From Moorella sp. E308F (GTDB lineage: Bacteria > Bacillota > DSM-521 > Neomoorellales > Neomoorellaceae), in assembly GCF_006538365.1 (NCBI RefSeq), contig NZ_BJKN01000003.1, positions 124,432-188,431 of the forward strand: a stretch of 64,000 nt of DNA, in the 5' to 3' direction. Each line of letters starts with the position of its first letter. The stretch's first letter is position 1. The notes beneath the pieces were generated by a model that ran no database searches, had not been told where the DNA came from, and worked only from the letters and a program-made list of their open reading frames with translations. The position numbers and the translations under genes were made by a program. This document shows positions 23,465-49,206 of the stretch, piece after piece.

Positions 23465-23479
23465 TATAGCAAAATTAAT

Positions 23480-23575
23480 ATGGAGGGGAGCTCCTGTTAG
23501 GGGCTGAGAAAGGGCTAGTGAGCACCTGACCCTTTGACCTGATCAGGGTAATGCCTGCGGAGGGAGAGTGAACGT
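23480..23575 (+). promoter_or_regulatory. TPP riboswitch (THI element)
   Basis: Contains the conserved aptamer blocks GGGGCTGAGA, ACCCTTTGACCTGATCAGG, GGTAATGCC and GCGGAGGGA in the correct order. Binding of thiamine pyrophosphate should favour the terminator immediately downstream and switch off thiESG-hydG. Confidence 0.95.
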
Positions 23576-23580
23576 TTACG

Positions 23581-23618
23581 ACCGGTGTCCTCCTCCAAAG
23601 GAGCACACCGGTTTTTTT
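23581..23618 (+). terminator. Riboswitch-controlled terminator
   Basis: Stem ACCGGTGT/ACACCGGT with an inner CTCC/GGAG pairing, then seven T. Expression platform of the TPP riboswitch. Between it and thiE (23619-23756) a perfect hairpin AAACTGGC-GTG-GCCAGTTT (23687-23705) is the only other structure noticed. Confidence 0.9.
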
Positions 23619-33189: not shown

Positions 33190-33284
33190 AAGCCGCACCA
33201 GAGTTTTAAACCGCTCGCCGCAGGTTTTAAAACCTTTTTAATAAGGTGCCTGACGGTGGCGAGTCTTAGCTTGGGGGGATTTCA
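33190..33284 (+). promoter_or_regulatory. L21 leader, putative autoregulatory mRNA structure
   Basis: About 100 nt untranslated leader before rplU. CTCGCC (about 33213) can pair with GGCGAG (about 33258), enclosing a perfect AGGTTTT/AAAACCT hairpin followed by TTTTT, which resembles an attenuator. Firmicute L21 genes are known to carry a conserved L21 leader; the match here is by position and base pairing, not by alignment. Confidence 0.55.
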
Positions 33285-46402: not shown

Positions 46403-47188
46403 ATGAACTACATCCAGGCCATTGTCCTGGGCCTGGTCCAGGGCCTTGGCGAGTTTTTGCCTATCTCCAGTTCTGCCCATCTGGTTTTGCTTCCCTGGTT
46501 TTTCCGCTGGCCCGACCCGGGCTTAACCTTTGATGTCGCCTTGCACCTGGGTACGCTGATTGCCGTGGTAGCTTATTTCTGGCGAGACCTTATAGAATTG
46601 GTTGTTTGCGGCTTGTTTCAACCCAGGAGCCAGGACGGCCGCCTCTTCTGGTACCTGGTTGTTGCCTCCATCCCGGGGGCCATCTTTGGTTATCTCCTGG
46701 AAGACCAGGCCGCGACGGTTTTCCGCTCGCCCCAGCTCATTGCTTTAACCCTTACCTTGATGGGTATTGGCCTGTGGTGGGCCGACCGGGTGGGTCGAAA
46801 GACCCGGCAAATGGATGATATTACCCTGGCTGACAGCATTATTGTTGGTATTTCCCAGGCACTGGCCATAATCCCCGGCGTCTCTCGTTCCGGGATTACC
46901 ATGTCCGCCGGGCTCCTTACCGGGATGCAGCGCGAGACGGCAGCCCGCTTTTCCTTCCTCATGTCGGTGCCGATTATTGCCGGGGCAGCCCTGCTGCAGT
47001 TAAAGGAATTAACCCTGGCTGCTATCAACCTGCCCTTTATCTTGGGGGTTCTGACGGCAGCCGTCGTCGGCTTTTTAGCCATCAAGTTTTTGCTCCAGTA
47101 CTTGCGCCACGGCAGTTACCTCCTATTTACCTGGTACCGTATTTGCCTGGCCGCCTTGGTGGTAGCTGTTTTATGGTTACGCCGCTAA
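46403..47188 (+). CDS. uppP: Undecaprenyl-diphosphate phosphatase
   Basis: Recycles the undecaprenyl carrier for wall synthesis; overexpression gives bacitracin resistance in other bacteria. ATG 46403 is nine bases after AAGGAG; the ATG at 46397 is too close. 261 residues, about eight membrane segments, with the family motifs GLGEFLPISSSAHL and IIPGVSRSGITMSAG. TTGACA hexamers at about 46311 and 46340 may belong to its promoter. Confidence 0.96.
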   Translation: MNYIQAIVLGLVQGLGEFLPISSSAHLVLLPWFFRWPDPGLTFDVALHLGTLIAVVAYFWRDLIELVVCGLFQPRSQDGRLFWYLVVASIPGAIFGYLLEDQAATVFRSPQLIALTLTLMGIGLWWADRVGRKTRQMDDITLADSIIVGISQALAIIPGVSRSGITMSAGLLTGMQRETAARFSFLMSVPIIAGAALLQLKELTLAAINLPFILGVLTAAVVGFLAIKFLLQYLRHGSYLLFTWYRICLAALVVAVLWLRR

Positions 47189-47210: not shown

Positions 47211-47239
47211 TTGACATTGGGGTTCCAGGTAATTATAAT
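47211..47239 (+). promoter_or_regulatory. Consensus sigma-A promoter of amtB-glnB
   Basis: Perfect TTGACA (47211-47216), 17-bp spacer, perfect TATAAT (47234-47239). Such a strong promoter with no visible repressor site suggests control at the RNA level. Confidence 0.9.
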
Positions 47240-47258
47240 AAAAACAAAATAAAATAAC

Positions 47259-47320
47259 GTAAGCAATGGTGCTTACAAGGCGATGAAGCCGCTATCATTT
47301 TTAAGATAGCGGCTTTATTA
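47259..47320 (+). promoter_or_regulatory. Attenuator 1: ANTAR-type hairpin overlapping an intrinsic terminator
   Basis: Hairpin GTAAGC-AATGGT-GCTTAC (47259-47276) has a six-base loop with A at position 1 and G at position 4, the signature of RNA bound by ANTAR antiterminators. A second small hairpin GGC-GATGAA-GCC (47279-47290) shares bases with the 5' arm of an 11-bp perfect terminator stem (47286-47296 with 47305-47315) followed by a T-rich tail, so the two are mutually exclusive. The second loop has G rather than A at position 1, which weakens the match. Confidence 0.55.
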
Positions 47321-47338
47321 TTATCCTAATGTTGGGAG

Positions 47339-47403
47339 CAAGTAAAGGCGCTAATCAGGGTGGATTGAAAGCCCCCTGGGGTAGCGCCTTTTACTTTTTA
47401 ATT
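47339..47403 (+). terminator. Attenuator 2: large terminator-like hairpin in the amtB leader
   Basis: AAGTAAAGGCGCTA pairs with TAGCGCCTTTTACTT (one bulge), enclosing a CAGGG/CCCTG inner stem, and is followed by TTTTAATTCTT. Second termination point within the same leader. Confidence 0.65.
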
Positions 47404-47428
47404 CTTTAACACCAGGGAGGGGGTAGCC

Positions 47429-47458
47429 ATGGGCAAACTGGTCAGGAAGAGATGGTAA
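47429..47458 (+). CDS. Putative nine-residue leader peptide upstream of amtB
   Basis: ATG at 47429 reads MGKLVRKRW and stops with TAA. It is preceded by AGGGAGGGGG, a strong ribosome site. It lies after attenuator 2 and 33 bp before amtB. A translated role is inference. Confidence 0.4.
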   Translation: MGKLVRKRW

Positions 47459-47491
47459 TTTCGTTTAAAAAAGTTTGGGGGAGGTAAAACC

Positions 47492-49206
<1,715 letters not shown>

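Follow-up and report, generated by a model that had tools for sequence, protein, structure and literature searches.

The ammonium transporter gene amtB of Moorella sp. E308F, followed by the P-II gene glnB, is preceded by a leader that extends from a promoter at 47211 to the amtB start at 47492 of the window, the whole 64,000-nucleotide stretch of DNA that was analysed. The question raised by this leader is what decides whether a transcript begun at its promoter reaches amtB. We consider it quite probable, from sequence comparison, that the leader is an ANTAR-controlled transcription attenuator, and probably a double one. The elements, in 5′ to 3′ order, are as follows.

47211–47239, + strand: sigma-70 promoter, TTGACA-17-TATAAT, matching the consensus at 12 of 12 positions
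47259–47276, + strand: P1, recruitment hairpin of unit 1, GTAAGC[AATGGT]GCTTAC, loop with A1 and G4; held-out covariance model, all pairs kept in five species
47279–47290, + strand: P2, antiterminator hairpin of unit 1, GGC[GATGAA]GCC, loop with G1 and G4; held-out covariance model, relatives
47286–47315, + strand: T1, terminator with an 11-bp stem, AAGCCGCTATC/GATAGCGGCTT, then TATTATTA; the preferred fold once transcribed
47324–47337, + strand: P1′ of the probable ANTAR unit 2, TCCT[AATGTT]GGGA, loop with A1 and G4; pairs kept in five species
47341–47352, + strand: P2′ of the probable unit 2, AGT[AAAGGC]GCT, loop with A1 and G4; overlaps T2
47340–47396, + strand: T2, terminator with T-rich 3′ end CTTTTACTTTTTAATT; fold about -31 kcal/mol
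47429–47458, + strand: nine-codon ORF, MGKLVRKRW, with a strong ribosome site (SD GGAGGGG at 47416–47422)
47492–48829, + strand: amtB, ammonium transporter (PF00909, E 1e-125; TIGR00836 above cut-off)
48868–49206, + strand: glnB/glnK, P-II signalling protein (PF00543, E 3e-30)

A paired hexaloop at the first terminator

A sequence-only reading of this DNA had described a consensus promoter, a first hairpin with the A1/G4 hexaloop AATGGT, and a small second hairpin sharing bases with an 11-bp terminator. All three are present: the promoter is a perfect sigma-70 match, whose hexamers and 17-bp spacing are conserved in the leaders of four relatives, the first hairpin is P1, and the second is P2, whose 3′ arm lies inside T1. 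P1 and P2 are adjacent hairpins with stems of 6 and 3 bp (the criterion was at least 3 bp), each closed by a hexaloop and joined by a linker of 2 nt. The 5′ arm of T1, AAGCCGCTATC, takes bases from both the loop and the 3′ arm of P2. The folding energy of T1 is -31.6 kcal/mol, versus -12.0 kcal/mol for P1 and P2 alone.

The fold of the whole leader beats 200 of 200 shuffles (z -5.0). A scan by shape only, over both strands of the window, returned 14 places in the 64 kb, with the two leader units ranking 7th and 12th by score; shape alone therefore proves nothing, and the scan was dropped as proof. The significance of the leader derives from a held-out covariance model, from the relatives, and from a cognate ANTAR gene. 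A search of the leader against Rfam gave no family above threshold, only sub-threshold chance matches. Elsewhere in the window, Rfam identifies a TPP riboswitch (23474–23582) and a ribosomal protein L21 leader (33199–33276), both ordinary.

The covariance model, R1, was built from 13 paired hexaloops in glnA and other amt leaders of the genus, with the amtB clade studied here left out; in one training row (glnA4, L144), P1 is not in register. Across the 13 leaders the R1 stems have 96% pairing and 23 double-sided changes; shuffles gave 6.7 such changes, and slid controls no more than 6. A model that has not seen this clade still detects unit 1, as the sequence-only reading would have it: unit 1 is the top match in the whole window, at 18.9 bits (E 5e-4), with the next at 11.8. 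R1 also picks unit 1 in two leaders that are not in the model, that of G008 at 23.5 bits and that of G004 at 20.3 bits. All 16 pairs of units 1 and 2 are kept in five species and are mostly invariant. Within the amtB clade these five species have no covariation or compensatory changes, because the sequences are too alike. Two MAFFT alignments, A4 and A6, were set aside with their loops out of register.

All four leader loops have G at position 4, and this G is kept in the five species. Position 1 is less constant. The P2 loop is GATGAA here and in three relatives and AATGAA in G004. The expectation of paired A1/G4 loops is thus borne out for P1 and not for P2, which begins with G; similarly, in the relatives the loops are kept while position 1 varies from A to G. 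This G1 is a point against the ANTAR reading. PMC3369931 reports that mutation of loop A1 lowered induction in vivo in Enterococcus faecalis, and that cutting the eutP linker to 3 nt, which may be set beside the 2 nt of unit 1, reduced induction; its 2012 search definition, as given there, has A1 in both loops. A 2021 survey describes A1 as a majority trait of ANTAR-target loops. In 77 loops compiled from the genus by a search rule that imposed G at position 4 and A or G at position 1, position 1 is A in 65 and G in 12; position 2, which the rule left free, is A in 74. In the EutV-RNA structure, A1 makes no protein contact and G4 stacks on Tyr164 (PMC8934654), so that a G1 loop is plausible.

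The second terminator and the short ORF

The sequence-only reading had placed a further large terminator-like hairpin downstream and spoken of two serial attenuators. T2 is that hairpin, and both terminators are present. What had been overlooked is the hexaloop pair P1′/P2′ overlapping T2. Just as P2 overlaps T1, P2′ overlaps an intrinsic terminator, and with this pair the other terminator probably belongs to an ANTAR unit as well, the second in the leader, rather than to some other kind of device. The stems of unit 2 are 4 bp (P1′) and 3 bp (P2′), and both loops have A1 here. The P1′ stem is 7 bp in G008; the P2′ arms are AGC/GCT in G008 and GGC/GCT in G004, and T2 is present in both with diverged sequence.

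We regard it as likely, judging from these comparisons, that unit 2 is indeed an ANTAR unit. In the alternative reading, ANTAR control is confined to unit 1; T2 is a terminator that is controlled otherwise or simply serves as a back-up, and unit 2 has its hexaloops by chance. Several observations favour this. R1 gives no match to unit 2 in the window search, P2′ has just three pairs, and P1′ and P2′ together are thermodynamically weak (-2.3 kcal/mol). Chance look-alikes occur in shape-only scans, and of the window's 294 hairpin-plus-T sites, 14 (about 5%) carry such a loop. However, five species retain both hairpins of unit 2, with their G4, although the inner part of T2 has changed. Moreover, similarly placed G4 hexaloops occur at second terminators of other amt leaders. 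A search for amtB in genome contigs matched only remoter organisms, and their upstream regions were scanned for hexaloops. Within the genus, leaders of the other amt clade have the hexaloop on the 5′ arm of the second terminator: GGAGC[AACGGG]GCTCT in L015, GGAGT[AAAGGC]GCTCC in L017, and GGAGT[AATGGG]GCTCC in L018, where T2 is without a good T tract. In other genera, the second-terminator hexaloop is TAGC[AAAGGC]GCTA in G013, and GGGC[ACAGGC]GCCC and GGGGC[AAGGGC]GCCCT in G021; that of G020 was recognised by eye. Assessed by script and inspection, these hexaloops are support and not proof. On this evidence, control of unit 1 alone appears rather improbable, though it is the alternative that survives best.

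The leaders of the other clade differ in detail. A possible P1′ in L015, L017, and L018 sits inside the 3′ arm of T1 itself, no P1′ was seen in the amt leader of G013, and several genera have a unit 2 for which no clear recruitment hairpin is evident. L015, L016, L017, and L018 share a kept block immediately before the amt start, TGTGGGCAAYGCCGTCC ... GGAGGCTCCCACA, with an extra hexaloop, GGGC[AAYGCC]GTCC. Pairing of TGTGGG with CCCACA would also be possible around the ribosome site, and this region is possibly a further, translational level of control.

The location of the leader suggests a different explanation, that T1 and T2 merely end the transcript of uppP (bacA), a same-strand gene that closely precedes the leader, with its end at 47188, and that amtB is expressed from elsewhere. 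We think this very improbable: the perfect promoter, kept in relatives, is situated after uppP and before T1, the interval from T2 to amtB yielded no consensus promoter, and the paired loops would be left unexplained.

The nine-codon ORF with a strong ribosome site, noted in the sequence-only reading, is present, and a short ORF with such a site is kept in position in all five species. Ribosome-mediated attenuation through its translation, independent of ANTAR, is nevertheless scarcely credible, since the ORF is 3′ of both T1 and T2 and its translation cannot gate them, and its sequence is not conserved (MGKLVRKRW, MGKQVRKSW, MMKAE). At the same place, the species whose AmtB is 88% identical carries a 5-codon ORF of unrelated sequence. 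The conserved short coding sequence upstream of its terminator that marks a leader-peptide attenuator was not found in this leader, and the idea of a peptide-specific leader finds no support. A ribosome-loading or protective role of the ORF is possible.

Returning to the proposed double ANTAR attenuator, its operation would be as follows. RNA polymerase would start near 47246 and make P1. If active NitR-like protein, the putative ANTAR regulator described below, is absent, P2 would yield to T1, and transcription would stop near 47320. If the protein is present, it would bind the hexaloops and hold P2; given that P2 shares bases with T1, T1 would then be blocked. A polymerase reading through would meet the second copy, P1′-P2′-T2, and face the same choice again. 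Two bypass events would thus be needed, presumably with less leakage and a sharper response. Here, binding, antitermination, and the response of unit 2 are what we infer from sequence, together with the signal, nitrogen limitation, which is deduced from the target genes.

The NitR-like protein and the nitrogen regulon

The sequence-only reading had called for an ANTAR response regulator. The genome contains exactly one ANTAR gene (79.8 bits), a nitR-like gene immediately followed by a glnA, one of four in the genome, and by a class II amidotransferase gene. Its product consists of a receiver (5e-14) and an ANTAR domain (1e-21). The gene is present in 10 of 11 genus genomes, the eleventh being 58% complete, and across the order ANTAR and amt genes mostly co-occur. 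In G013, amt and the ANTAR gene are adjacent and divergently oriented. The amt frame there (L224, 98–595) is split in pieces, the first of 165 aa, and this amt may be decaying or mis-sequenced. G016 has a similar amt leader (L148), in which both hexaloops begin with G, yet no ANTAR gene was found in that genome, reflecting either loss or an assembly gap.

NitR aligns with mycobacterial Rv1626 (1s8n, 1.2e-37) and with EutV (6wsh/6ww6, 1.4e-26). Of the EutV RNA-contact residues defined in PMC8934654, Arg142, Lys143, Lys149, Glu160, Tyr164, and Met172 are kept in NitR, and Lys147 is replaced by Arg. In the receiver, the phospho-acceptor Asp (EutV D54) and the Lys are kept. The metal-holding acidic pair is replaced by S or C and by A or S in ten genus proteins. 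Since this pair is missing, the signal to NitR may not be ordinary phosphorylation, and classical phosphorylation control appears doubtful.

Paired hexaloops are also found in this genome ahead of glnA2, glnA4, asnB, an amidotransferase gene, and nitR itself. The R1 scores are 46.3 bits for the glnA2 leader, a training member, 21.1 bits for asnB, 20.4 bits for glnA4, and 15.3 bits for the amidotransferase gene, which has a full terminator. Having been drawn up by model searches, this list may lack some members; a fast first pass overlooked both the site in the window and the nitR leader. Matches to R1 inside coding regions (e.g., C2:752612 and C1:1216293) were judged noise.

Some of these leaders have features of their own. 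The asnB leader (L177, about 1490–1560) has GGGGTTGC[AAGGCC]GTGACCCC and GGGC[AACGGC]GTCC, and asnB is likely a regulon member. In L183 (about 1495–1570), a full ANTAR unit with terminator precedes a gene for a PuuD-like class I amidotransferase, and a permease gene lies farther downstream. In glnA4 leaders (L179/L004; L140, L142, L143, L145), the first hairpin has a 7-base loop, GATGCAT or GATGGAT, where G002 has the hexaloop GATGTT. In the present genome, the start of glnA4 is overlapped by an ORF about 17 codons long. The glnA3 leader (L008/L003; relatives L127–L134) has a kept stem resembling AAAG.GCGTCC...GGGGCGCTTTC, and no ANTAR loops were seen in it.

The pair just ahead of nitR is GGGC[AAAGGG]GTCC and GCTAC[AACGGC]GTAGC (L006, 4640–4760, minus strand), and it is kept in all genus genomes with the gene (relatives L109–L117). 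This leader is without a terminator, and a G run resembling a ribosome site lies just downstream of the pair, an arrangement which suggests that NitR may limit its own synthesis at translation.

The sequence evidence covers the anatomy of the amtB-glnB leader, its conservation, the regulon, and the single ANTAR gene. The antiterminator reading stands on the match to the held-out model, the loops kept in relatives, and the ANTAR gene beside glnA. The genome's only ANTAR protein is most likely the regulator of the amtB-glnB leader, and the nitrogen regulon, amtB-glnB included, seems to be run by it. It is tempting to go further and suppose that the amt leaders of the order are relay attenuators, in which an ANTAR dimer would pass from unit 1 to the antiterminator hairpin of unit 2, that NitR would limit itself through the terminator-less pair at the nitR ribosome site, and that its activation would not involve classical phosphorylation of the receiver but, for example, a partner such as glutamine synthetase or P-II. 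This combined proposal is speculative, and we consider it unlikely as a whole.

Comparison with known ANTAR systems

The serial layout is an interesting and unusual feature of the amtB-glnB leader. Ammonium uptake, P-II, several glutamine synthetases, and asparagine synthetase appear here to be coordinated by a single RNA-binding protein through transcription attenuation, in a system small enough to be tested. Serial units, and second units with or without a P1, allow a natural experiment on the transfer that has been proposed for an ANTAR dimer, from the recruitment to the antiterminator hairpin, and on the real need for the conserved A1.

The type of switch is known. ANTAR elements were predicted in 2012 ahead of ammonium transporter, P-II, and glutamine and glutamate synthase genes in Desulfotomaculum acetoxidans and D. 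reducens, and the former has 13 attenuation systems in six transcription units, which implies several per unit (PMC3369931). Multiplicity is thus probably known too. The text of that paper holds no statement on two systems in series before one amtB, and its supplement may list a relative of the present organism. A literature search for Moorella and ANTAR found nothing relevant. As far as could be checked against these sources, an amtB leader with two explicit units, the recurrence of such leaders across the order, the G1 loops, and the receiver without an acidic pair are new.

The nasF leader of Klebsiella is another nitrogen operon leader under ANTAR antitermination, but NasR carries a nitrate-sensing domain, whereas NitR carries a receiver. 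Actinobacterial ANTAR RNAs, for which control at translation is known, overlap the ribosome site (PMC8164766) and resemble the terminator-less pair ahead of nitR; the amtB leader, in contrast, uses terminators. A further close parallel is the eutP leader of E. faecalis, controlled by EutV/EutW. It likewise has a pair of hexaloop hairpins, and part of the second is used by an intrinsic terminator. EutV and NitR are both receiver-ANTAR proteins with nearly the same RNA-contact residues, although the NitR receiver is without the acidic pair. The amtB leader differs from that of eutP in serving nitrogen assimilation, in probably having two units, and in the G1 of one loop.
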